The notes under the pieces: model-generated
Seen by the model: the letters and a program-made list of their open reading frames with translations, nothing else
Database searches by the model: none
Told to the model about the DNA's origin: nothing
From: a virus
DNA: 56,683 bases
Direction: 5' to 3' (one strand)
IMG/VR virus record: IMGVR_UViG_3300042922_001010
Location: 1-56,683 of that record
Made by a program: the position numbers and the translations under genes
Shown: in pieces, positions 3,065 through 44,646 of the stretch
How the letters are laid out: every line of letters starts with the position of its first letter
Position numbering within the stretch: position 1 is the stretch's first letter

Positions 3065-3532
3065 TTACTCCTTCGTCTGGATGAGCAGCTCGAGTTCCGA
3101 TTCGCTGGTCTCGTCGGTGAACTCGAGTCCGAGCTCGTTGGCCTTCGTGCGGAGCGCTGCGATGTCCAGGTCGCCGGAATCGCCGGACGCACCGGATTCG
3201 GCGGCCGCTGCAGCGGCGATCTCCGCTTCCTTAGCGGCGATGCGCGCGAGGATGTCCTTGGTCTTGCCGTTCGCCTTGACCTCGAGCGCCTTGGCGCGAT
3301 CGACGACGGCGGCGCGGTCCGGTGCGGGTGCGGGTGCGGGCTGGGCCGGCTGGGCCGTGGTGCCGGCGGTCTCGGAACGGGCGGGCTGTGTCGCCTCGCC
3401 GTACACCTCGAGAACGTCGGGGTTGGTGACGATGTCCTTGGCCCAGTCGGGCAGGTCGTCGCCGGGAATGAGGGTGACGAATTCGGCGTCGCGCGGGACG
3501 GTGACGTACCCGGTAAGTCGTGTGGGGCTCAT
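3065..3532 (-). CDS. Capsid-region protein with two SAP/HeH-like motifs
   Basis: This 155-aa protein has a globular N-terminus (residues 1-48) and a Pro/Ala-rich linker (about 49-72). Two short helix-extended-helix-like segments follow: one around 75-98 containing VKANGKTKDILARI, and one around 123-155 containing LRTKANELGLEF. SAP/HeH motifs of this kind often bind nucleic acid. It lies directly after the major capsid gene and a hairpin terminator. A role in head completion or DNA contact is possible but unproven. Confidence 0.55.
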   Translation of the reverse strand: MSPTRLTGYVTVPRDAEFVTLIPGDDLPDWAKDIVTNPDVLEVYGEATQPARSETAGTTAQPAQPAPAPAPDRAAVVDRAKALEVKANGKTKDILARIAAKEAEIAAAAAAESGASGDSGDLDIAALRTKANELGLEFTDETSESELELLIQTKE

Positions 3533-3559
3533 GCAGACCTCTCAGTCGGTGGGGATGAG

Positions 3560-3595
3560 AAAGGGGCGCCCTCCGCGGATGGGAGGACGCCCCTT
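3560..3595 (-). terminator. Hairpin terminator after the capsid gene
   Basis: An 8-bp stem (AAGGGGCG with CGCCCCTT) encloses a second stem (CCTCC with GGAGG). On the minus strand it is followed by TTTCTC, a weak U tract. It lies directly 3' of the capsid gene and probably reduces downstream transcription or stabilises the abundant capsid mRNA. Confidence 0.65.
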
Positions 3596-3610
3596 CGGGG
3601 TCGCGTCAGA

Positions 3611-4606
3611 TCAGAACGCGTCGAGGACCGCGGTGCGGTCGGGGGCCGTCACGACGGGCAGCACGACACCCGACACGAGGACGTTGTAGCCCTCGGGGTC
3701 GCTGCGGTGCATGGCGCCGGCGAACAGTCCCGGGCGCTCGGCCTGGGCGATGCCGTTCTCGGGGTTGACCGACTCGGCCGCGATACCGACCTTGGTCGTG
3801 CCGACCTGGCCCGCGGGAACGATGAGCACCTTGTCGGCCGCGATGGTCGGAACCAGCACGCCGGAGGTGTTGGTCACGAGCTCCTCGTTGACGCGCGGGA
3901 CGCCGAGACGGAAGTCCGAGAACACCGTCTGCACGTCCGCCCACGAGATGCGGTCCGGGAGGTCCGTTCCGCGGCCGAGGGCCGTCTTGATGAGCTGCGT
4001 GTTCCGCTGCAGGTAGGTCGCGGACTGCTCCGACAGGATGACCCGTCCGAGCGGCCCGTAGACCGAGCGGAGCCCCTCGAGGTCCGCGATGGGGTTCGCC
4101 GTGGCGACGCTGGACCACGGGGTCGCGGCGTTGGCGCTGAGGGCGCCGTTGCGTCCGAACTCGACGGTGAAGTTGAGCTTGCCTTCGGTGATGGTCACCT
4201 TGCCGCTCGTGATGCCCTCGTAGGCGGCGAGCACGACACGGGCCGCGAGCGCCTGAGCGGAGCGGATCGCGCGGTCCTCGAACGCCTGGCCGATCGCGTT
4301 GTTCTGACCGAACAGCGTCAGCTTGAGGTACTCGTCGACCGGGTGGCGCTGGCTGATGGGCGGGAGCGCACCCTGCTTGCTCGAGCCGGAGGGCATCTCG
4401 CCCACGTCCGACTCGGTGTTCCACGCGCGGTAGGTCGCGGCGGCCGGGAGGGCGCCCTCGACGTTGCCGTACGTGAAGTCGAGGTCGTAGACCACGTCGA
4501 GCGGCAGGAGGCCGGCGACGAGGTACCCCTCGATGAAGGCGCGGAACGCCGCCCGCGCTGCAGCGGTGAGCTGCGCGGGGGTGCGGAAGTCCTTGGTGAA
4601 GGTCAT
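3611..4606 (-). CDS. Major capsid protein (gpE-like family)
   Basis: This 331-aa protein starts MTFTKDFRTPAQLTAAARAA. It resembles the lambda gpE-like family: an N-terminal arm, a hydrophobic stretch GYLVAGLLPLDVV, and late segments such as ADKVLIVPAGQVGTTKVG followed by a C-terminal strand region. It lies directly after the decoration protein and scaffold. It should build the icosahedral shell. There is no long delta domain, and a separate scaffold gene is present. Confidence 0.85.
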   Translation of the reverse strand: MTFTKDFRTPAQLTAAARAAFRAFIEGYLVAGLLPLDVVYDLDFTYGNVEGALPAAATYRAWNTESDVGEMPSGSSKQGALPPISQRHPVDEYLKLTLFGQNNAIGQAFEDRAIRSAQALAARVVLAAYEGITSGKVTITEGKLNFTVEFGRNGALSANAATPWSSVATANPIADLEGLRSVYGPLGRVILSEQSATYLQRNTQLIKTALGRGTDLPDRISWADVQTVFSDFRLGVPRVNEELVTNTSGVLVPTIAADKVLIVPAGQVGTTKVGIAAESVNPENGIAQAERPGLFAGAMHRSDPEGYNVLVSGVVLPVVTAPDRTAVLDAF

Positions 4607-4620
4607 GTGGTGGGGGCCTC

Positions 4621-5052
4621 TCAGACGAACTTGAAGATGCCGGTGGTGGCGGCATCGGCGACGGTGTCGCGCTGGGCGACGACGGGCAGGCGGTCGGCCG
4701 CGATCTCGGCGATTCCGACGAGAGCGAAGGTCGGCTTCGCGGTCGCCGGGTTCGCGCCGAGCTCGACGCCGAGGACGTCGCCCACGAAGCCGGCGAGGAC
4801 GCGTGCGGGGTCGCCGTCGGCGCCCGCCTCCGCGTCGAACGGCACGTAGAGGTCGTTCGCGGCGAGCGCGACAGCGACGCCCGAGGGGACGACGTTGTCG
4901 GTGCGACCGTTCAGGTTGTAGTGGACGCCGGACTCGAACGCGGTCGGGTCGAGCTGACCGGACTTCTCCGAGCCCTCCCCGAACTTGCCGATGCGGTACC
5001 GGGTGTCGATGGGGCGACCCACCGCGGTCGTGCTGGTCTGGAAATCGACCAT
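4621..5052 (-). CDS. Head decoration protein (gpD-like)
   Basis: This 143-aa protein begins MVDFQTSTTAVGRPID, with the ATG just after a GAGGG ribosome site. It is rich in Gly, Ala and Asp and has a barrel-like central part (VPSGVAVALAANDLYVPFDA). In gpE-type phages the trimeric decoration protein that stabilises the expanded capsid is encoded just before the capsid gene, as here. Confidence 0.75.
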   Translation of the reverse strand: MVDFQTSTTAVGRPIDTRYRIGKFGEGSEKSGQLDPTAFESGVHYNLNGRTDNVVPSGVAVALAANDLYVPFDAEAGADGDPARVLAGFVGDVLGVELGANPATAKPTFALVGIAEIAADRLPVVAQRDTVADAATTGIFKFV

Positions 5053-5068
5053 GAATCCCTCCTCGGGA

Positions 5069-5749
5069 CTAGTTGGACTTGGGCTTGAGGCGGTCGTAGA
5101 ACGCCTGCTCCATGGCCGCGACGGAACCGCCGGTGCCGGGAGGGGTCTTGGACTGCCGGGAGAGCACGTCGCCGAGCAGATCGCCCGGAGGGGTGCCGTC
5201 GTTGCTGGCCCTCGGAGCGAGGGTGTTGGCGAACGTCTCGACCTTCGCGGCGTCGAGATTTCCGTCGGCGTCGATGAACTTCTGCACATCGATCACCTCG
5301 AGGACACCGTTCACGCGCGCGGCGGCATCTTCGGGGGTTTCGTCCGCGCCGCGGGTGCGGGCGACGAGGATGGCCTGGACCGCGGGCTTCGCGAACTTGT
5401 CGCGGGCGGCCTCGAATCCGGCGGTCTGCGCTTCCGTGCGCGCCTGGGCGAGCGCGCGGTCCGCGTCGCTGAGCGCTGCGGCTGCGGCGTCGTCTGCGGC
5501 AGTGAGCTTGGTGCGGACTTCGTCGACCGAGCCGAACTTGAGCCAGGGCGTGAGGTTCTTCTGCTGCTTCTTGGACTCGTGGCGCCAGTATTCCGCGCGC
5601 TGTTCGGGCGTCATGTCGGCGACCTTGGTCTCGACGGGGAAGTCGAACGTCTCGCCGTCGAGCGTCGGCTTCAAGGGCGGCGTGGTGCCGCCGGTGGGGT
5701 TCTCGCCGTCGAAGAAACGGAGCAGGAAGAAGGGTTTGCGAGTGAACAT
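5069..5749 (-). CDS. Scaffolding protein
   Basis: This 226-aa acidic, Ala-rich protein has a predicted helical middle (about residues 75-125) and a basic C-terminus with SVAAMEQAFYDRLKPKSN, as in phage scaffolds that bind the inner capsid surface. It lies between the MuF-like gene and the decoration/capsid genes. It should direct procapsid assembly and then leave the head. No protease motif is seen. Confidence 0.75.
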   Translation of the reverse strand: MFTRKPFFLLRFFDGENPTGGTTPPLKPTLDGETFDFPVETKVADMTPEQRAEYWRHESKKQQKNLTPWLKFGSVDEVRTKLTAADDAAAAALSDADRALAQARTEAQTAGFEAARDKFAKPAVQAILVARTRGADETPEDAAARVNGVLEVIDVQKFIDADGNLDAAKVETFANTLAPRASNDGTPPGDLLGDVLSRQSKTPPGTGGSVAAMEQAFYDRLKPKSN

Positions 5750-5807
5750 GCTGAGGTGTCCTCCGGATCGGAAGTGGGAACCGCACCCAGATCGGGCGCG
5801 GGGTGCG

Positions 5808-6878
5808 TCAGGCCGCGTGGCGGCTGGCGCGTGCGATGAGGTCGCGGTGGTACTGGATGGCGGCGTCGATGTCCTTCACTGCGCGGGGGCTGCCGCTGCC
5901 GGCGATGTCGACGACGTTCGTGCCGCGGGACTTGGCGTTGAGCAAGTAGCGAATGGAGCGCTCGGACGTAGCGGCCATGGCTTTCCAGTTCCGCTCGTCG
6001 TCCTCGCGCGTCTGCCGCTTGAACGGCGTCGCCTTCGCGCTGTAGGTGGTGTCGCGGTTCACCTCGTCGAGCGTCCGGAACTTGGATCCCTGTCGGATGA
6101 GGATGGGACCGAGTTCGCCGTGCTCGTAGGACGTCACGCGGATGTTCTTGAGGCCCTGTCCTCCGGTGCCGCCGGCGGCCGCGTAGAGCGCGTCCAGGTC
6201 TTCGCGGTTGAGCTCGAGCCCGGGGTCGGACGTCGCAGTGACGGCGTCGACAGTGCACTTGCATCCGCCGTGGATCTCCATGAGGTCTTGGACGGAGTAC
6301 AGGCGGTCGGCGGCCACCATGCAGAGGCCGCACGTACCGGTGCGCGAGCGCTCCGGGTGGATGATGCGGCGGTAGCCGATCACCTTGGGCGAGGCGGCCA
6401 TGACCTTGTTCGTTTCGTCTCGCGCGGCCGCCTGGACGTCGGCCTCGACGATGCGCGTGAGGCGTTCGGTGAACGCTGCGTTGGCCTTTTCCGCGGCCTC
6501 GGCGGGCGACGCGCCCTGTTCAAGTTCACGCCGCTCGACGTAGTTCCGCTCGCGGGCAGGGCGCTGGTAGACGACAAGCTGCAGCGCCCCGCCGCGTTCG
6601 TAGGTGTTGACGGTCGGCGCCAGGCTGACGGGCGGGGCTCCGAGCTGTGCGAGCCGGGTGAGCATGTACCCGCGCGACATGCCGCGGACCTGAGCGAGAG
6701 CGACGTCCACGTCGACCGTGGAGCGTGCGGCGCGCGCGCGGACTAGGTCAGCGTCGTCCCACTGGTCGAAGCCGCCCCACAGCCCGAATAGCACCCGCAG
6801 AAGGGTGGCGAGGATGCTGGCCTGTGTCTTGGAGTAGGCGTCAACCGTTCGTCGGGTTTGATCCAGCGTTGTTGACAT
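5808..6878 (-). CDS. MuF-like minor capsid protein
   Basis: This 356-aa protein lies directly after the portal and overlaps it by 38 bp. The central region has the Cys/His pattern of MuF (SPP1 gp7-like) proteins: RTGTCGLCMVAADRLYS followed by HGGCKCTVDAV. Such proteins bind the portal inside the head and may be ejected with DNA. The C-terminal third (about 250-356) is basic and unrecognised. Some phages carry toxin domains there, but I see no known toxin motif. Confidence 0.8.
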   Translation of the reverse strand: MSTTLDQTRRTVDAYSKTQASILATLLRVLFGLWGGFDQWDDADLVRARAARSTVDVDVALAQVRGMSRGYMLTRLAQLGAPPVSLAPTVNTYERGGALQLVVYQRPARERNYVERRELEQGASPAEAAEKANAAFTERLTRIVEADVQAAARDETNKVMAASPKVIGYRRIIHPERSRTGTCGLCMVAADRLYSVQDLMEIHGGCKCTVDAVTATSDPGLELNREDLDALYAAAGGTGGQGLKNIRVTSYEHGELGPILIRQGSKFRTLDEVNRDTTYSAKATPFKRQTREDDERNWKAMAATSERSIRYLLNAKSRGTNVVDIAGSGSPRAVKDIDAAIQYHRDLIARASRHAA

Positions 6879-31322: not shown

Positions 31323-31594
31323 CGCATGGAGCCTTTCGCGGTCAGAGCGTCGAAGATGGGCGTTCCTTCTTCCGGCACCACCGATTTCGTCATCAGGACA
31401 CCCTCCGAGCCCGGTTCGTAGGACAGCGTGAGCGTCCGCGTCGGCGGCATGACGTAGTCGGAGAACCACGTCTGAATCGCTTCCTGAACCTCGTAATCGA
31501 CGTGATCGGGGATCTCGATCACGAGACGGCATAGGGCGCCGTCGCTGCCGCGGTAGTAACCCGTCAGCGGGGCAACCTGCACTCCGTCCTTCAC
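31319..31594 (-). CDS. Hypothetical protein (91 aa)
   Basis: The GTG start overlaps the RNA ligase stop. The protein contains LVIEIPDHVDYEVQEAIQTW and TLTLSYEPGSEGV and looks like a compact alpha/beta domain. No family recognised. Its coupling to the RNA ligase may be meaningful or merely operon packing. Confidence 0.55.
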   Translation of the reverse strand: MKDGVQVAPLTGYYRGSDGALCRLVIEIPDHVDYEVQEAIQTWFSDYVMPPTRTLTLSYEPGSEGVLMTKSVVPEEGTPIFDALTAKGSMR

Positions 31595-32916
31595 GCCGCG
31601 ATGCTCTCGGCGGACTCGAGGTCGACCTCGCCGGCGTCGAGCTGCGCGGTCTCGTAAAGGAAGTGGCTCGCGTTCTTGTGCTTGAACAGCAGCGGCACGC
31701 GGCCGCCGCGGTCGACGCGGATCGCGATGCCCTCGTCGGCGCCCGTGCCGTCCTTGCTCAGCGGCAGCGGGACGTCGACATAGGCGCGGATCCCGAGTTC
31801 GGCTCCTGCCATGAACGACCGCGCGAAGTCCACCTCGTCGAACGCCGGGAGGTAGAAGTCGTGCTTGGGGCCTCGCCAGAGCTCGGCGACGTGCTGGAAT
31901 CCGTGCTCGTTCGCGAACGTCCGCACCTGATCCCACGACAGGTCGTAGAGGTCGCCGGTCTCGGTGATGAACGAGACCCGGTAGAGGAACAGCGCTCGCT
32001 CGCCTCGCGGCAGGTGGTACGTGTGGCCGGGCTGGATCTGCGCGCCGTCCTTCGTCCAGCCGACGACCTCGCCGTAGACGATCACGTTCGCGGGGATGCG
32101 GTCCTGCACCTCGCGGCCGATCTCGGACCACAGGTCGGTGCCGTAGTAGTGCGCCTGGTCCGGGTTGTTGACGTCCTTGATGACCTGACGGGAGCCGAAC
32201 ACGACGTCGAGCTCGTGCTCGGCCACCTTCACGCCGAGGCGCCGCGCGAGGCGCTCGAGCCACGTCAGCTTCCGGCGGACTGGGACGCGGCCGGCGCGGA
32301 ACGACGTGCCGTGGAGCTTCTGCGTGACGATGAGGGTGTCGTTCTCGGCGATGAGGTGCTCGTTGCGGAGGTACTGGTCCGTCTCGATGTGCACGGGGAA
32401 CATGGCCGCGTCCACGCGCTTGAACGCCTTCTTGACGTTCGCCTTCTCGCGCGACGTCGTCGCGACCGGCTCCTTGACCCGGTACTTCCGGGACACCTCG
32501 TCGCCGTTGATGTGGTCGAACGCGAGACCCTCGGTGAATACCGAGTCCGGCACGCCGAACGCGTCCGCGACGACCGCCACGGGCAGCACGAGACCGTTCG
32601 AGATGGTGCCGCGCAGCTTGAGCGCGCGCACCCGGCGGTTGTCCTCGAGGTAGCCCTTCTGGGTGCTGTCGCGGTTCAGGAACTCGTGGCGGTAGAGGTT
32701 CGCGTGCCGGGCGAGGTCGTCGCTGATCTGCGACTCCGCCGGGAAGAACACGGCGAGGTCGTCCTCGCGGATGTCGCCGTCCTTCTGGGTGATGACGGTG
32801 TAGCCGAAGATGCCGAGACCGACCAGGCGGTCAGCGTTCGGCAGCGCGTACGGTGCGGGCACGCGCACCACCTGGGCGGCGTAGTTGGGGGTGTCGATGA
32901 TCTCGAACTTGGTCAT
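31591..32916 (-). CDS. RNA ligase (nucleotidyltransferase, Rnl-type)
   Basis: This 441-aa protein is an ATP-type RNA ligase. The adenylated lysine is probably Lys200 in TQKLHGTSF (motif I, KxxG). Motif IIIa is VIVYGEVVG (278-286), motif IV EGIAIRV (395-401) and motif V LLFKHKN (409-415). The N-terminal 140 residues look like an added OB-type domain, as in DraRnl-like (Rnl5) ligases. It seals RNA ends and sits 12 bp downstream of the end-healing kinase-phosphatase. Confidence 0.9.
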   Translation of the reverse strand: MTKFEIIDTPNYAAQVVRVPAPYALPNADRLVGLGIFGYTVITQKDGDIREDDLAVFFPAESQISDDLARHANLYRHEFLNRDSTQKGYLEDNRRVRALKLRGTISNGLVLPVAVVADAFGVPDSVFTEGLAFDHINGDEVSRKYRVKEPVATTSREKANVKKAFKRVDAAMFPVHIETDQYLRNEHLIAENDTLIVTQKLHGTSFRAGRVPVRRKLTWLERLARRLGVKVAEHELDVVFGSRQVIKDVNNPDQAHYYGTDLWSEIGREVQDRIPANVIVYGEVVGWTKDGAQIQPGHTYHLPRGERALFLYRVSFITETGDLYDLSWDQVRTFANEHGFQHVAELWRGPKHDFYLPAFDEVDFARSFMAGAELGIRAYVDVPLPLSKDGTGADEGIAIRVDRGGRVPLLFKHKNASHFLYETAQLDAGEVDLESAESIAA

Positions 32917-32928
32917 GGTTTCCTTTCC

Positions 32929-33819
32929 TCAGAACTCGTTGGCCGGGTCGCCGACCTGGAACGTCTTGACGCCCTTCATGCGCCATGCGCGGCACACGGA
33001 CGGGCGATCGTCGATCACACCGAGGACGTTGAAGCGGTCCCGGATGTGACGGTCGAACAGTTCGGGCTTGATGACGTCGTCGCGGCGTCCGTCGCCGTCG
33101 GCGCGCATGTGCAGCGCGTCGTAGGAGACGAAGTTCGCGTCGAGCCACTTGACGGTCTCGGCGCGCGCGGTCTCGTCACGCCCGGACAGGAGCACGATGT
33201 GGTGCGACTGGTGCAGCGCGTTCACGACGTCGCGGACCGCGACATCGACGTCGTCCTCCCCCACCCGCGTCATGTCGTAGTACGACCGGCCACCGTTGTT
33301 GTGCGCGAGCGTCCCGTCGATATCGACGATGAACGCACTGTCGAGCTGCCAGTCCTGCTCGTACTTCCACGGCTCGGACGGCGTCGCAGCGGGCAGTGCC
33401 GGGATGTCGCCGTTCACGGTGAAGCGGCGGAACATGCGGCGGATGGCTTCCGCGGGGATCGGGTGCTCCCGACGCGCGTTCCGCTCGAGCGCCTCCCGGA
33501 TCGTGACCGGGAAGTCGACGGTCTCGACGGGGAACCCGAGGTGCAGCCACGCCCGCACGAACCGCGGGTTGAGGTTCGTCGCGTCGATCACCACGTCCTT
33601 GCCAGCGGCGAGGGAGGTGATGGCGATGGATTTCTCGATGGCGCTCACATGCTGTTCCTGCGCGGGCGACAGCAGCTTGTCGGGGGTGGCGTAGAGCATC
33701 CCGCGGAGGTCGTCACGGCTGATGCGGACGCGGCTCTCGGGGGCCTCCTGGACCCACTTCTTCGCGTAGGTGCTCTTGCCGGAGCCGGGGATGCCCCGGG
33801 TGAGGTAGAGGGTGGTCAT
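32929..33819 (-). CDS. Polynucleotide 5'-kinase / 3'-phosphatase (T4 Pnkp-like)
   Basis: This 296-aa protein has an N-terminal P-loop kinase (GIPGSGKS at 9-16, ISRDDLR, VVIDATNLN) and a C-terminal HAD-type phosphatase (FIVDIDGTLAHN with the DxDGT motif, then LLSGRDE and VIDDRPS). This is the domain order of T4 Pnkp, which heals 2',3'-cyclic phosphate and 5'-OH RNA ends. With the adjacent RNA ligase it forms a complete repair pair, classically used against anticodon nucleases. Confidence 0.93.
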   Translation of the reverse strand: MTTLYLTRGIPGSGKSTYAKKWVQEAPESRVRISRDDLRGMLYATPDKLLSPAQEQHVSAIEKSIAITSLAAGKDVVIDATNLNPRFVRAWLHLGFPVETVDFPVTIREALERNARREHPIPAEAIRRMFRRFTVNGDIPALPAATPSEPWKYEQDWQLDSAFIVDIDGTLAHNNGGRSYYDMTRVGEDDVDVAVRDVVNALHQSHHIVLLSGRDETARAETVKWLDANFVSYDALHMRADGDGRRDDVIKPELFDRHIRDRFNVLGVIDDRPSVCRAWRMKGVKTFQVGDPANEF

Positions 33820-33826
33820 GGCGCTC

Positions 33827-34033
33827 CTATCGGTACGCGCCGGACCTCGCCTCGGCGCGATGGATTCTGTGCGGCTCGGTCGTCTTCGAGCAGCACCGGT
33901 CCGTGTCGAGCGCGAGGGCTCGTTGGCCGCAGACGACGCATTGTGGGTAGTCGCGGTGAAGCTGGTCGATGCGAGCGAGTGCCGCCACCTTCGCGGCGAT
34001 GGCGGCGGCACTCGGGACGTAGGCGTCAGCCAC
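33827..34033 (-). CDS. Small zinc-binding protein (68 aa)
   Basis: A GTG start gives MADAYVPSAAAIAAKVAALA, then HRDYPQCVVCGQRALALDTD and RCCSKTTEPHRIHR. The Cys/His set (CVVC, CC, H) suggests one zinc site. It is immediately upstream of the kinase-phosphatase (7 bp). Function unknown. Confidence 0.65.
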   Translation of the reverse strand: MADAYVPSAAAIAAKVAALARIDQLHRDYPQCVVCGQRALALDTDRCCSKTTEPHRIHRAEARSGAYR

Positions 34034-34042
34034 GCGGCCGCA

Positions 34043-34423
34043 TCACGCCGCGGCGTCGCCGTCGCCGTCGGTAAGACGCTTCCCGATGTCGTCGACCGCG
34101 TCCTCGTTCGTGACGGCCTCTTTGACCGCAATCCGCCTGCACGCCGCGCAGTGCGTGGAGTCGATCTCCGCCGGCACCGCCTCGGGGAAGAAGAAGTGGT
34201 GCAGGTAGCTTGCGCGCGTCTGCACAGCATTCAGCCGGTCGGCCTCCGCGGCGACTTCCTCCCACGTGCCGTACATCGGAGTGAATCCAGGCGGCACCTC
34301 GGGAAGCCCGGCGTCGGCGTCACGGTCGCGGGTGTAGACGCCCGTGACCTTGTTGTAGCTGTACGCCTCGGTGCGGTGCCGGAGCTCGAACTTGAGGGGG
34401 GTGATGGGCTCTGCGACGGTCAT
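34043..34423 (-). CDS. Hypothetical protein (126 aa)
   Basis: It starts MTVAEPITPLKFELRHRTEA and contains PPGFTPMYGTWEEVAAEADR and one Cys pair (HCAACRRIAVKEA), with an acidic tail. No recognised domain. It overlaps the upstream gene by 4 bp. The CxxC could be half of a zinc site or a redox pair. Confidence 0.6.
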   Translation of the reverse strand: MTVAEPITPLKFELRHRTEAYSYNKVTGVYTRDRDADAGLPEVPPGFTPMYGTWEEVAAEADRLNAVQTRASYLHHFFFPEAVPAEIDSTHCAACRRIAVKEAVTNEDAVDDIGKRLTDGDGDAAA

Positions 34424-38525: not shown

Positions 38526-38611
38526 GGATTCCTCGGGCGGGTAGGGCCACCAGCGACGAACGCGGCGGCGATGACGAGTAGAGCGGCGGCGATCCAGTCC
38601 CCGGCGCTCAT
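38522..38611 (-). CDS. Single-helix membrane micro-protein (29 aa)
   Basis: The product MSAGDWIAAALLVIAAAFVA ends with a short GGPTRPRNP tail: one transmembrane helix and a basic tail. The ATG overlaps the previous stop and its own stop overlaps the next start. A real but very small membrane protein is likely. Confidence 0.5.
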   Translation of the reverse strand: MSAGDWIAAALLVIAAAFVAGGPTRPRNP

Positions 38612-38748
38612 CGGGGACCGCCGCGCTTCGCTTTCCCGCGGCGGGCGACGGCCGCGCGATGAAGCGCGGAGCGCCGGGCGACCTCGAGCGCTTCCTCGCG
38701 CTGACGACGGGCGCGAAGGCGCATCATCTGGAACGGATTCAGGAACAT
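38608..38748 (-). CDS. Small basic protein (46 aa)
   Basis: It starts MFLNPFQMMRLRARRQREEA and is strongly basic (ending RRGKAKRGGPR), so it may bind nucleic acid. The ATG follows GAGAGGA and lies directly after a strong hairpin. It overlaps the membrane micro-protein by 4 bp. Confidence 0.55.
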   Translation of the reverse strand: MFLNPFQMMRLRARRQREEALEVARRSALHRAAVARRGKAKRGGPR

Positions 38749-38774
38749 GCGACCGGTCCTCTCGGGTACGAGAA

Positions 38775-38803
38775 CGGGAGCCGACATTTGATGTCGGCTC
38801 CCG
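38775..38803 (-). terminator. Strong hairpin between early sub-operons
   Basis: CGGGAGCCGACAT and ATGTCGGCTCCCG form a perfect 13-bp stem with a 3-base loop. Neither side has a long U tract. It separates the membrane/lipoprotein gene group from the rest of the early operon and could be a terminator or an RNA-processing/stability element. Confidence 0.7.
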
Positions 38804-38876
38804 CGAGAAAGAGATGAGGCGGCGCGCGTAGTAGTTGGGGTTTGCCCAGCCCAACACGCTTCTGCGCGCCGCTCGC

Positions 38877-38917
38877 GCGTGGGACGGGAGTCGAACCCGC
38901 CCTGCGACCATCCACGC
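38877..38917 (-). ncRNA. tRNA-like minihelix C
   Basis: The 41-nt minus-strand element has GCGTGG pairing with CCACGC (acceptor-like) and a 6-bp T arm GGCGGG/CCCGTC with the canonical loop TTCGACT. Only about 9 nt replace the D and anticodon arms. It is the third member of a family with elements at 40123 and 40676. Confidence 0.6.
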
Positions 38918-38924
38918 TGTGCGG

Positions 38925-39101
38925 TCAGCGACCGCGTGCCTTCTTCCAGCCCTTCTTGACGTGCGACCATGTGCCGGCGGCGAAAGTCGCGACGACGGAC
39001 AGGACGCCGTCCTTGTCGCGAGCGGCGAACTCGAGCACGTGCTCACGCGTGTCGTGCGACTGGGCACGAACCTTGACGCGTTCCCCGTCCCGCAGCGTCA
39101 C
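38925..39101 (-). CDS. Small basic protein; start codon uncertain (possible ATC at 39128)
   Basis: The frame codes for a basic protein ending GTWSHVKKGWKKARGR. A GTG at 39101 gives 58 aa. The best ribosome site (GGAGG at the end of the lipoprotein gene) instead points to an ATC at 39128, seven bases on, which would give 67 aa starting with IADKQKSWTVTLRDGERVKV. The reading frame looks coding throughout, so the longer form is attractive. No known family. Confidence 0.55.
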   Translation of the reverse strand: MTLRDGERVKVRAQSHDTREHVLEFAARDKDGVLSVVATFAAGTWSHVKKGWKKARGR

Positions 39102-39131
39102 AGTCCAGGACTTCTGCTTGTCGGCGATGGG

Positions 39132-39635
39132 TCAGCCTCCGAGACGCGGGACGTCGATGGCGAGCGGCGCGTCGGACTGGATGTAGTCGAGCGACGTGAC
39201 GACCATCGTGCCGTCGGACGTGAAGAAGAAGATGCCGGGGTCGCCGTCGCCGTAGCTGCCGTCGTCCTGCGCGCTCTCCACGGAGAAGAAGTCCGCGGAC
39301 GTGCCGTTCGCGTAACTCGGTCGCACGAACTCCGTCTCCGGCGCGATCTGCGAGCCGTTGCTGCTGATCTTGCCCTTGGTGACGTAGTAGCCGACGATGT
39401 CGCCGAACGACATCACGTAGAGGTAGCGCAGCGCCTCGGGGTCGTCCTCGCGGGCGCGCTTCTCCTTGAGGTTCGTGAGTTCGAGCGAGCTGGTCGTGTC
39501 GTACTCCGCGGCGAGCGACTTCCGATCTTCGTACGCCTGCCGCTCGCTGGTGTTCCCGGTGCACCCGCTGAGCGCGAGCGCACCGACGAGGGCGAGGGCG
39601 GCGGTCGCGGCGAGCCGCTTCGTGAGGTTCTTCAT
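39132..39635 (-). CDS. Putative lipoprotein
   Basis: This 167-aa protein has a classic lipoprotein signal: MKNLTKRL, a hydrophobic core and the lipobox ALSGC (Cys25). The mature part is acidic with Tyr/Ser-rich stretches (YLYVMSFGDIVGYYVTKGKI). Prophage lipoproteins in the early, repressor-near region often block superinfection or are surface-exposed. This is inference from signal and location only. Confidence 0.75.
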   Translation of the reverse strand: MKNLTKRLAATAALALVGALALSGCTGNTSERQAYEDRKSLAAEYDTTSSLELTNLKEKRAREDDPEALRYLYVMSFGDIVGYYVTKGKISSNGSQIAPETEFVRPSYANGTSADFFSVESAQDDGSYGDGDPGIFFFTSDGTMVVTSLDYIQSDAPLAIDVPRLGG

Positions 39636-39638
39636 GGG

Positions 39639-40091
39639 TTACTCCTTGCAGTCGGTGGTCGGGTCGAGATCGTCGATCTGATGGGGCAAGTCCGGGGCGC
39701 GCCAGTCGGCGGCCAGGAACTTCCGTGCCTCGGCGTTGTAGTCGCCTACGAGCGAGACGCAGATGTTCACCGTTCCGAGGTACGTGTCGGCCGCCGTGCG
39801 GTCGTCGGGATTGGCGGCCTTCGCTTGCGCGGCGATGGTGACCTTCCGGTCGGTCGCGACGATGTCGGCGTACAAGTCCTCGAACTTGGCCTGCGCCGCC
39901 GTCCAGTTCTGCGCGCTGTTGTTCTTGACGATCCCGTCGCCCTGACCGCGCACACCCGACGTCGCGACGCCGATGCCCCACCACGCCGCGCCGATGAGCG
40001 CCACGATCACGGTGCCTGCGATGATCCAGATGGCGACGAAACGGCCGCCTCGGTTGAGTTGTCTGCGCGTATCGCGCCAGTCGTCCGTCAT
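39639..40091 (-). CDS. Membrane-anchored protein (150 aa)
   Basis: It starts MTDDWRDTRRQLNRGGRFVA, with a single N-terminal transmembrane helix (about 18-42) and an outer domain of about 105 residues with two Cys (ICVSLVGDY and TTDCKE). It is followed by the lipoprotein, 3 bp away, with which it may form a pair at the cell surface. No family recognised. Confidence 0.65.
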   Translation of the reverse strand: MTDDWRDTRRQLNRGGRFVAIWIIAGTVIVALIGAAWWGIGVATSGVRGQGDGIVKNNSAQNWTAAQAKFEDLYADIVATDRKVTIAAQAKAANPDDRTAADTYLGTVNICVSLVGDYNAEARKFLAADWRAPDLPHQIDDLDPTTDCKE

Positions 40092-40122
40092 GTGCTCCCT
40101 TTCGTGTGGATGTCGTTCACCC

Positions 40123-40165
40123 GTGCGCGCCAGGGACTCGAACGCCTGGTGTCTGCCGGTCGCGC
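40123..40165 (-). ncRNA. tRNA-like minihelix B
   Basis: The 43-nt minus-strand element has GCGCG pairing with CGCGC and a T arm CCAGG/CCTGG with the T-loop-like sequence TTCGAGT. About 12 nt lie between the 5' strand and the T arm. It is about 75 percent identical to element A (40676-40719) and lies between two short genes. Confidence 0.65.
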
Positions 40166-40171
40166 GTCTTC

Positions 40172-40438
40172 TCACAGATCAGCGGTGCTCACGGGGGCTG
40201 CTCCTTCCGTTTCCTGAATGGGCCTCATGCGGCCTGCTTCGACGGCGGCGTCCGTCGCGAGATCCTCGAGGAGCTGGACGGCGCGGTCGTTGACGGCGAT
40301 CGTGTCCTCATGCCACAGGCGGCGGTTGGTTTCGACGGACGTCGCCACCCCCACGGCCGCGGTCCGAATCGCGTTGAACGCGACGACAAGCGCGCGCTCT
40401 TGGATCTCGTTCTGGGTGAGCTTCGTCTTGAGGGCCAT
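40172..40438 (-). CDS. Hypothetical helical protein (88 aa)
   Basis: It starts MALKTKLTQNEIQERALVVA and looks all-helical, with an acidic tail. The ATG overlaps the previous stop by 1 bp. No known family. It lies between two tRNA-like elements. Confidence 0.55.
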   Translation of the reverse strand: MALKTKLTQNEIQERALVVAFNAIRTAAVGVATSVETNRRLWHEDTIAVNDRAVQLLEDLATDAAVEAGRMRPIQETEGAAPVSTADL

Positions 40439-40638
40439 CAGACGCCCTTGAACTTCCGCCCGAGAACGACCGACGCCATCCGCGCGGCCGGTGCGCCGCC
40501 TCCGTCGATGACCGCGAGGCGAGATGCGATCTTCTCGGCGGCAGCTTGGGCGGGGACGCCGTGCTTGCTCGCGACCCGAGCCAGTTCGTTCGGGTCGACG
40601 TTCTTGAGCGCGGCCCGCGCCTCCTGGATGACGTTCAT
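40438..40638 (-). CDS. Hypothetical protein (66 aa)
   Basis: It starts MNVIQEARAALKNVDPNELA, with the ATG at 40638 six bases after AGGAG (a second ATG 6 bases upstream has no room for a ribosome site). The product is helical and basic at the end (RMASVVLGRKFKGV). It follows a structured leader and tRNA-like element A. Confidence 0.6.
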   Translation of the reverse strand: MNVIQEARAALKNVDPNELARVASKHGVPAQAAAEKIASRLAVIDGGGAPAARMASVVLGRKFKGV

Positions 40639-40675
40639 GTGCATCTCCTTCTCGTTCGGCTGGTGTCGTGGATGC

Positions 40676-40719
40676 GTGCGCGCCGGGGACTCGCTCCCCC
40701 GGTGTCGGCTACGTCGCGC
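40676..40719 (-). ncRNA. tRNA-like minihelix A
   Basis: The 44-nt minus-strand element has GCGCG pairing with CGCGC and a T-arm-like stem CCGGGG/CCCCGG with a changed loop (GAGCGAGT). It shares the frame and many bases with element B. It lies 38 bp upstream of the gene at 40638. Confidence 0.6.
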
Positions 40720-40739
40720 CCCCGGCCGTAGCCGGGAAG

Positions 40740-40865
40740 TGTTGTGGAATCCCTTCGATCCCTTGGTAAGCAGCCGCCCTCTCGGGGCGACCCGCCGCCG
40801 GGACATACCGGCGGTCCTCACAACCAGCCGCCCGTAGACCCCGTTCGGTCCCTATGGGCGGTCGA
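40740..40865 (-). ncRNA. Structured leader with tandem hairpins
   Basis: On the minus strand three hairpins follow each other: CCGCCCATAG/CTACGGGCGG with an inner ACC/GGT pairing (about 40829-40862), CCGCCGG/CCGGCGG (about 40794-40813) and CGCCC/GGGCG (about 40774-40789). A CCAAGGGATCGAAGGGA leader word follows. The stretch 40639-41014 has no supportable gene, and this is its main content. It may be an untranslated regulatory RNA at the start of the early operon. Confidence 0.5.
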
Positions 40866-41014
40866 CTGCTATCTCTGTGGAGTTACTTCTGCCTGTCCCC
40901 CTCCGCCGGTCGGTGGCCGGGGTCAACGAGGGTGTGGCATCTCTCGGGCATGCCGAGTAGTGCCCCCAACCGATCTGCGAGCGCGTCGGGGGCTGTGAGG
41001 CACCGCGGAGCGAG

Positions 41015-43092: not shown

Positions 43093-44400
43093 CTAGGCGG
43101 CGATGGCCTCCCTGAGTTCCCCGCGCTGGATGGCGTCGGCGAAGTGCTCCCCCAGCGCAGTGAGTGCCGCGCGGGCGGCCGCCGAGGAGACGTGCTGGTA
43201 GCCGCGAGTGGTCCGCTCCGACACGTGTCCGACGATCTCGCCGATGATCTTCGCGTCCACGCCGAGCTCCATGAGCACGGTCGCGGTCGTGTGGCGGGCG
43301 ACGTGCGTCGTGGGCGTAAGCGGCGTGCCCGGCGCGCGGTCGCGCTCCGGCTGGTTCTGCTCAGCGGTGATGACGCCCGCTTCGTAGAGGACCGTTCGCC
43401 AGGCTTCCTGATCCTGCTCCGCCGTGATCGGACGGCCGTCGGCGTGCCGCCAGATTAATCCGTGCGGGTTCGGGCCGGTAGACGCTGCCACGTAGCGGCG
43501 CAGCGCCTCCTCGAGTTCGGGGATGAGCGGGATGGTCCGCACCTTGCCGGACTTCGGCCGCACGAGGCAGAGCCGGCCGTCCAGCTGTCGATACTCCATG
43601 TCGTCCGCCATGATGAGCTTCCGCTCGGGGCAGGCGCCGCCGCGCTTCCTGCCGCACGGGTCATCGTCGGGGCACCCGTGTCGGAAACGGGCCTCGGTGA
43701 GCGACCACTGGACGACGAACTGGTGGTTCACGAAGTCGATGCTGTCGAGAGTCGCACCGATGCGCTCTCCCTGTCGCAATCCTGCCAACAGAGCGACCCA
43801 CCACCGCGTTCCGTCCGCGTGCATGGCCGCTGTGCGGAGGACGTCGAGTGCCGCCTCAGTGGACAGTGCGTCTCGCTCTGCGCCGTTCGCCGACGGAGCC
43901 TTCACGTCGCTCGCGATGTTCCGAGCGATGATGCCGTCCAGGCGGGCGGCTTCGAGCATCGAACTCAGGACAGCGTGCACCTTGAGCGCGCTCGAGGAAG
44001 CGCGCCCGGCGTCGAACATGGCGCGCGTGACCGCGCGGACGTCGGAGGGCTTGAGCTGCGCGACGCGCTTCCTGCGGAGGGTGGGGACGATCCACCGGTT
44101 GACCGCGGACTCGTAGCCCTGCAGGGCCGCCGGCTTCATGTTCGGCTCGCACACCGTTCGGAGCCAGTGCTCCGCCCACTGCTCGACGGTCATGGCCTTG
44201 TCGAGCGGCGCGCCGTGCTGCTCGAGCTCCGCGCGAAGCGTCTTGAGCTTCGCCCGCGCGTCTGCCTGCGTCTTGCCGTAGACGTAGCGCTGTCGACGGC
44301 GCCCGTCGGGCCAGAACCCGTCGTCGATGACGCCTCGCCAGAGGCCGCGCGACTTGATGAAGTACAGGCCACCGTCGCCGTGGCTGCGCTTTTTCGGCAT
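43093..44400 (-). CDS. int: Tyrosine integrase
   Basis: This 435-aa phage integrase has an N-terminal AP2-like arm-binding domain (PKKRSHGDGGLYFIKSRGLW), a core-binding SAM-like domain (about 70-160) and a C-terminal catalytic domain: LRQGERIG (Arg), HVARHTTATVL (HxxR) and SERTTRGYQHVS with the nucleophile Tyr. The ATG at 44400 (after AAGGGG) is preferred over upstream starts that would run into attP. It lies next to attP and should recombine with a tRNA-Thr gene. Confidence 0.92.
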   Translation of the reverse strand: MPKKRSHGDGGLYFIKSRGLWRGVIDDGFWPDGRRRQRYVYGKTQADARAKLKTLRAELEQHGAPLDKAMTVEQWAEHWLRTVCEPNMKPAALQGYESAVNRWIVPTLRRKRVAQLKPSDVRAVTRAMFDAGRASSSALKVHAVLSSMLEAARLDGIIARNIASDVKAPSANGAERDALSTEAALDVLRTAAMHADGTRWWVALLAGLRQGERIGATLDSIDFVNHQFVVQWSLTEARFRHGCPDDDPCGRKRGGACPERKLIMADDMEYRQLDGRLCLVRPKSGKVRTIPLIPELEEALRRYVAASTGPNPHGLIWRHADGRPITAEQDQEAWRTVLYEAGVITAEQNQPERDRAPGTPLTPTTHVARHTTATVLMELGVDAKIIGEIVGHVSERTTRGYQHVSSAAARAALTALGEHFADAIQRGELREAIAA

Positions 44401-44421
44401 CCGAATCCCCTTGTCTGTGCT

Positions 44422-44442
44422 GTGCACACATGAGTGCACACA
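44422..44442. repeat. Integrase arm-type sites, int side (two copies)
   Basis: GTGCACACA occurs at 44422-44430 and 44434-44442, 12 bases apart in the same orientation. An identical pair with the same spacing lies on the other side of the attP core. This symmetry is the expected layout of P and P' arm sites bound by the integrase N-terminal domain. A CACCTGC/GCAGGTG inverted repeat (44445-44471) lies between these sites and the core. Confidence 0.78.
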
Positions 44443-44527: not shown

Positions 44528-44577
44528 GGAGCCACCTAAGGGAATCGAACCCTTGACCTATTCATTACGAGTGAATT
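44528..44577 (-). other. attP core: 3' half of a tRNA-Thr(CGT) gene
   Basis: The minus strand reads the 3' half of a tRNA: anticodon stem-loop ATTCA CTCGTAA TGAAT (anticodon CGT), T arm AAGGG TTCGATT CCCTT, acceptor strand AGGTGGC, discriminator T and CCA. The 5' half of a tRNA is absent. This is the usual sign of a tyrosine integrase attP core that restores the host tRNA-Thr gene on integration. Confidence 0.85.
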
Positions 44578-44646
44578 GGTCCCGCCGTCGGAATGACCTA
44601 CAAATCGTTGATTTTCTAAGAGCCTAGCAAGGGCGCTCCAACCCCT

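Follow-up and report, generated by a model that had tools for sequence, protein, structure and literature searches.

The window analysed here is a phage record of 56,683 bases (IMGVR_UViG_3300042922_001010, used at its full length), which carries on its minus strand three short elements, E1 to E3, that resemble the top half of a tRNA. All three had been proposed from the letters of the window by a sequence-only reading, with E1 at the limits given below; the helix limits of E2 and E3 are corrected here. The elements, each read 5' to 3' on its own strand with helices in base pairs (bp) and linkers in nucleotides (nt), are as follows.

38877-38917, minus strand: E1, type B; 6 bp, 10-nt linker and 6 bp with loop TTCGACT (GCGTGG / linker ATGGTCGCAG / GGCGGG-TTCGACT-CCCGTC / CCACGC, then G-C-G)
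40125-40165, minus strand: E2, type A; 5 bp, 11-nt linker and 6 bp with one bulged C and loop TTCGAGT (GCGCG / linker ACCGGCAGACA / CCAGG(c)G-TTCGAGT-CCCTGG / CGCGC, then A-C-G)
40678-40719, minus strand: E3, degenerate type A; 5 bp, 12-nt linker and 6 bp with loop GAGCGAGT, no T loop (GCGCG / ACGTAGCCGACA / CCGGGG-GAGCGAGT-CCCCGG / CGCGC, then A-C-G)

E1 and E2 are two sub-types (B and A) of a single architecture, and E3 is a degraded copy of type A. In agreement with the earlier description of two canonical T loops and of two copies about 75 percent alike, E1 and E2 keep the T loop while E3 does not, and E2 and E3 are identical in 36 of 46 aligned columns (78%). E3 retains both helices and has lost the T loop together with the GG of the linker, a joint loss that is expected if the two act together; E3 is perhaps an inactive or decaying copy.

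Taken alone, the window is weak evidence and could not settle whether the elements are real: folded singly, they have z-scores of about 0 against shuffles, as expected for GC-rich stems of 40 nt (a result not counted as evidence), and E1 is recovered by a strict descriptor that demands 11 bp or more in total and a TTCGANN loop, while shuffled windows average 0.13 matches. The comparative evidence, by contrast, makes their reality certain. Phage records were searched by blastn with a query of 57 nt that spans E1 and one of 83 nt that spans E2. The E1 query returns an intergenic match in the Mycobacterium phage Sheen (86% over 51 nt, E=3e-8) as well as intergenic, multi-copy homologues in Gordonia phages and Mycobacterium phage Konstantine. 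The E2 query returns intergenic, multi-copy homologues in many Streptomyces phages, among them Lannister (97.7% identity over 42 nt, E=1e-10); the genomes of Lannister, Lika, Yosif and Izzy are each matched at three to five places. From such relatives three covariance models were derived: R1 for type A, from 29 sequences that include none of the window; R2 for type B, from 14 sequences with E1 among them; and R3, also for type B, from 26 sequences that again include none of the window. The window-free models find all three elements: R1 gives 55.1 bits for E2 (E=2.3e-11) and 26.6 bits for E3 (E=2.2e-4), and R3 gives 66.8 bits for E1 (E=1.2e-15). A large share of the gaps between the early genes of 12 relative phages hold an element. 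Whole phage genomes carry from one copy (Sheen, HINdeR) to about 15 (VanLee), with 7-10 in each of four Streptomyces phages of the type A group, and the copies lie almost all on a single strand and in a single arm. There is thus hardly any doubt that E1 to E3 belong to a real, conserved family of tRNA-top-half RNAs. The family architecture is an acceptor-like stem of 5-6 bp, a D-loop-like linker of 10-12 nt, a T stem of 6 bp and a canonical T loop, followed by purine-C.

The helices are maintained by compensatory change. In type A (71 distinct rows), 923 of 923 helix cells (100%) hold standard pairs with 167 two-sided changes, and in type B (26 rows) 99% of cells are paired with 65 two-sided changes, figures that carry the caveat that the initial seeds were partly collected with a pairing descriptor and that the alignment (A5) was fitted to the model, which favours the helices. 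None of 500 shuffles reaches the pairing level of type A, and sliding the partner by one to three columns lowers pairing to 31-46%. The sequence-only reading had staked its proposal in part on pairing being conserved in relatives, and 99-100% of helix cells pair there, with many compensatory changes.

The D and anticodon arms are absent, and only 10-12 nt separate the acceptor from the T arm in types A and B, both of which retain the loop TTC(G/A)ANN that E3 lacks; the paired length is 12 bp in type B and 11 bp in type A. The linker mimics a D loop, with a GG near the acceptor and two covarying contacts, one of which reaches the last base of the T loop. Both contacts are absent from every descriptor and model used, and both hold in 71 of 71 type A rows: linker position 2 covaries with position 8 (C-G in 50, G-C in 21), and covariation also joins linker position 9 to the base that ends the T loop (A-U in 52, G-C in 12, C-G in 4, others in 3). 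The linker sequence A-N-Y-G-G-C-A is close to the tRNA D-loop consensus around G18-G19-N20-A21, and the contact between positions 2 and 8 sits where the Levitt pair 15-48 would be. By analogy with tRNA structure, the linker GG can meet T-loop positions 55-56. In a third, heterogeneous group (VanLee, Morgana, MyraDee) the linker varies in length and sequence; its GG begins 2-4 nt past the acceptor in 12 of 13 linkers (4.8 expected), an interval chosen after types A and B had been seen.

These data bear directly on the proposal that the elements are decayed tRNA genes or attP-like fragments of tRNA genes. The T arm is indeed tRNA-like, and a probable attP tRNA fragment lies elsewhere in the phage (44538-44600). 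As a general account, however, decay is refuted by the covariation and deserves next to no credence: pairing is kept by compensatory changes in many copies, up to about 15 in a phage genome, and the copies are strictly intergenic and strand-biased. In the 12 phage loci of relatives no tRNA is predicted by ARAGORN, and the Rfam tRNA model (RF00005) has no match at E1 to E3, at the gathering threshold or at E<=5, and none in the loci of relatives. An origin of the elements as attP/attB tRNA fragments was likewise considered and rejected, as they are multicopy and intergenic, what matches them in other phages is again this element and the attP candidate lies elsewhere; identity with host tRNA genes was not searched for separately. 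The fragment at 44538-44600 (minus strand) is a truncated tRNA (34 bits, matched without its acceptor stem) that adjoins the integrase gene and is a probable attP or attL.

The element ends are also conserved. A purine followed by C stands directly 3' of the helix in 215 of 217 copies, a frequency that partly reflects search selection since the models include these columns, and the third base is mostly U. On the 5' side, base -1 is A in 111 of 116 type A copies and C or A in type B. Base -1 and the 3' purine show no correlation; thus, the acceptor is not extended. In type A, 80 of 116 copies have a second hairpin behind them, where 21 are expected.

In 12 annotated phage loci, 55 of 55 copies are intergenic and on the coding strand, while gaps make up 14% of the sequence; some of the 55 were spotted by reading gaps, and model matches compared by hand with the gap table are also intergenic. 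Elements precede the next start codon by a narrow range of distances (median 44 nt, middle half 37.5-50), while their distance from the preceding stop codon varies widely, from 1 to 217 nt. In the window, E2 lies 33 nt upstream of the ATG of the gene at 39639-40091 and E3 39 nt upstream of that of the gene at 40438-40638. E1 is a spacing outlier, immediately after an upstream stop codon and about 128 nt before the next ATG, with two strong hairpins in between; the region including E1 folds far better than shuffles (z=-3.9). The stretch from E1 to the ATG (38750-38872, minus strand) holds a large hairpin and a long, perfect, terminator-like hairpin.

Upstream of the elements, gaps of Streptomyces phages (5107-5189 of locus L015, 3826-3943 of locus L013 and similar gaps) repeat a GCACAC...GTGTGCTACCTTCGCA-like motif, perhaps stoperators or promoters. 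Motifs resembling TTGCAC...TACCTT also precede the element in some Streptomyces phage gaps; a promoter-driven leader is not claimed from these, as their spacing varies and they may be stoperators.

Two rival readings draw on the start-codon spacing. The main rival holds that, with no need of RNase P, a tRNA-like fold in the 5' leader stabilises the mRNA or acts as a roadblock to RNases that depend on the 5' end or proceed 5' to 3', an action likened to that of the exoribonuclease-resistant RNAs of eukaryotic viruses. RNase J and RNase E are present in Actinobacteria. Such a role is consistent with a position set relative to the start codon rather than the stop codon, with the tertiary covariation, which indicates a compact fold, and with the second hairpin after type A copies; it is nonetheless unlikely, as it would need neither the purine-C 3' of the helix nor the canonical T-loop sequence. 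Ranked just behind it is a binding site for a protein, either a host tRNA-binding enzyme or a regulator encoded by the element-bearing DNA, that would control translation of the downstream gene, as in thrS-type tRNA-like leaders. The narrow start-codon distance and the presence of one element per gene in several operons would suit such control, which is judged slightly less probable again: no element-encoded partner protein was found, though no systematic search for a shared one was made, and acceptor stems that vary freely argue against sequence-specific reading there.

The favoured reading, with a probability of roughly 0.45, is that the elements are natural substrates of the host enzymes of tRNA maturation, above all RNase P, and so cut and cap the polycistronic early mRNA, with enzyme, cut and benefit all predicted. 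Punctuation by RNase P or RNase Z was among three readings raised from the letters of the window and is the best supported of them, by the covariation, the D-loop mimic, the 3' purine-C, the intergenic placement and the start spacing; the cleavage itself is predicted from sequence. RNase P would read the stacked helix of 11-12 bp with the T loop folded on the linker GG, and the GGU of the RNase P P15 loop would recognise the 3' purine-C. A cut directly 5' of the element would split the polycistronic early transcript and leave each downstream cistron with a 5' monophosphate and, as its cap, a compact tRNA-like fold some 85 nt before the start codon. A cut by RNase Z 3' of the purine may replace the RNase P cut or come after it.

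Several lines of evidence point this way. The covariation of types A and B supports a stacked acceptor/T stem with a T loop, as in RNase P substrates, although the stacking itself is inferred. The P15-loop GGU of RNase P RNA pairs with R73-C74-C75 (PMC11143913), and the RNase P RNA of four host genomes has a GGU in the P15-loop region, with the loop identified by eye. Bacterial RNase P cuts at the canonical site in model hairpins that consist of the acceptor stem, T stem and T loop alone (PMC11143913), and its known substrates include polycistronic mRNAs as well as phage C4 antisense RNA (PMC11143913, PMC12710915). Together, the recognised features, the cleavage of model hairpins and the known phage and mRNA substrates suggest a cut 5' of the element. 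A shared host factor would also explain why the elements occur in otherwise unrelated phages and integrative-element-like loci.

Cleavage by RNase Z in place of RNase P, with the mRNA freed at the purine 3' of the helix, is the third alternative and an improbable one. The purine discriminator is retained and the trailing bases are rarely CC, which is compatible with RNase Z, as CCA would block this enzyme; the near-invariant C after the purine would, however, be unneeded by RNase Z, yet it fits RNase P pairing.

A number of observations weigh against RNase P as the enzyme that cuts and caps. The third base, mostly U, is not the second C of RCC(A), and thus GGU pairing would rest on C74 and a G-U wobble. 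Type A has 11 bp compared to the 12 bp of tRNA, and base -1 (A in type A, C or A in type B) differs from the U of many tRNA precursors. A fixed distance to the start codon is not required by punctuation alone, and E3 lacks both the T loop and the GG. Finally, the family is almost confined to Actinomycetota although RNase P is universal, a near-restriction that may reflect the host range of mobile elements or a lineage-specific factor.

The family is seen in phages of Streptomyces, Mycobacterium, Gordonia and other actinobacteria and in sporadic actinobacterial chromosomal loci. When 84,980 species, each represented by one genome, were scanned for the type B pattern, 81 stretches were returned, and of the 80 loci listed all but one are from Actinomycetota, mainly Streptomyces and Nonomuraea, with others in Brachybacterium, Corynebacterium, Tsukamurella, Gordonia and Microbacterium. 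The exception lies on a contig from a metagenome bin of Bacteroidales and may reflect misbinning. Prevalence searches scored the best first-look candidates only, such that their counts are lower bounds: at least 8 of 81 Streptomyces and at least 10 of 55 Nonomuraea genomes (centre genomes included) carry the pattern, as do at least two besides the centre in a phylum-wide draw of 149 genomes, while among the best first-look candidates scored in 99 genomes from the phylum of the Bacteroidales bin the centre alone carries it. This prevalence is sporadic, as for mobile DNA. A locus of Nonomuraea aurantiaca (3512-6398) has five near-identical type B copies in the gaps of an operon. This operon combines Nudix and WhiB genes with a divergent GntR regulator, a gene content that resembles that of pSAM2-type integrative conjugative elements. 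By this analogy the operon is likely an integrative element, a reading limited to this locus; prophages or integrative elements may account for most of the other chromosomal loci. A separate observation is that the record IMGVR_UViG_3300012204_000007 has 21 predicted tRNA genes within 12 kb, with several isoacceptors repeated (Lys four times, Arg three times).

The neighbourhood of E1 to E3 is that of a temperate actinophage. The elements sit in a leftward early operon of small genes, and the small genes leftward of the integrase are read here as Cro/excisionase-like. The genes adjoining the elements and the integrase gene are:

38608-38748, minus strand: small open reading frame, 46 amino acids, downstream of E1
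39639-40091, minus strand: gene for a small membrane-anchored protein, downstream of E2
40438-40638, minus strand: small gene, 66 amino acids, downstream of E3
43093-44430: tyrosine integrase

The membrane-anchored protein has relatives in Microbacterium, Arthrobacter and Curtobacterium phages, while a search for relatives of the 66- and 88-amino-acid proteins found none. At the loci of relatives of neighbour proteins the genes are retained and no type A or B elements were found; thus, the elements are not tied to those genes. Upstream of E3, a gap of about 300 nt (40720-41014, minus strand) has several GC-rich hairpins and no obvious gene; its folding z-score is only -1.3, and it could hold further structured RNA.

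Farther away (31591-34230, minus strand), an RNA ligase (PF09414) adjoins a PNKP-type kinase/phosphatase gene, a tRNA/RNA repair pair that resembles that of Microbacterium phages Hubbs and Platte. This RNA ligase and PNKP-type repair enzyme would accord with the idea, also raised from the letters alone, that the elements are decoys for tRNA-targeting defence nucleases. Last among the four alternatives to RNase P, that idea is very improbable: the elements have no anticodon loop, which most such nucleases cut, they are fixed in cis before genes at low copy number, and the RNA ligase family is absent from 12 other element-bearing phages. A link of the elements to tRNA repair is rejected on the same absence.

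The RNA family is likely new and previously undescribed. Rfam, at gathering or relaxed thresholds, yields nothing relevant apart from mascRNA/MEN-beta (RF01684), for which the best copy scores 26.9 bits, below the cut-off of 42.5, and no prior description was found in full-text open-access papers, a coverage outside which subscription journals and preprints fall. The mascRNA/MEN-beta RNAs are tRNA-like and matured by RNase P and RNase Z; they differ from the family in being vertebrate, in lying at the 3' end of long non-coding RNAs and in keeping a reduced anticodon arm. Plant mitochondrial t-elements are tRNA-like structures at mRNA ends that are cut by RNase P/RNase Z. Like the phage elements, they lie within polycistronic RNA, where they mark mRNA ends; t-elements are, however, few and organellar, whereas the actinobacterial phage family is repeated, covarying and without an anticodon arm. 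Start-associated sequences are short repeats of cluster K mycobacteriophages. They and cluster A-type stoperators share with the family the character of short, mostly intergenic repeats of one orientation in actinobacteriophages; neither is tRNA-like, and stoperators are 13-bp DNA repressor sites (PMC3029335).

Nearly alike in form are the model hairpins of RNase P studies (AT1, pATSer-type), which have a stacked acceptor/T stem and a T loop with no anticodon arm (PMC11143913, PMC12710915). These are man-made with RCCA 3' ends, while the natural elements carry R-C-U instead, together with a D-loop-like linker and 11 or 12 bp. RNase P also cuts phage or operon RNAs such as the C4 antisense RNA of phages P1/P7 and polycistronic mRNAs of E. 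coli (PMC11143913). They do not form a repeated intergenic family. Neither is known to have a tRNA top-half fold of this type.

The broader proposal, for which the odds are somewhat short of even, is that an undescribed class of natural mimic of the tRNA top half, with its D-loop-like linker, provides modular mRNA punctuation and 5' caps in actinobacterial phages and integrative-element-like operons, with host RNase P recruited gene by gene in polycistronic early operons. The family accounts for a repeated non-coding feature that is unannotated in the records of well-studied phages (e.g., Lika, Konstantine and Lannister); its use in RNA family libraries would allow such gaps to be annotated, and laboratory phages are a ready test bed. 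If the proposal is true, the phages and mobile elements of a whole bacterial phylum would share a portable RNA module, and a host tRNA-processing enzyme would become a tool for cutting and capping mRNA. The elements would then be a natural counterpart of laboratory-designed minimal RNase P substrates and would parallel, in bacteria, the tRNA punctuation of mitochondria.
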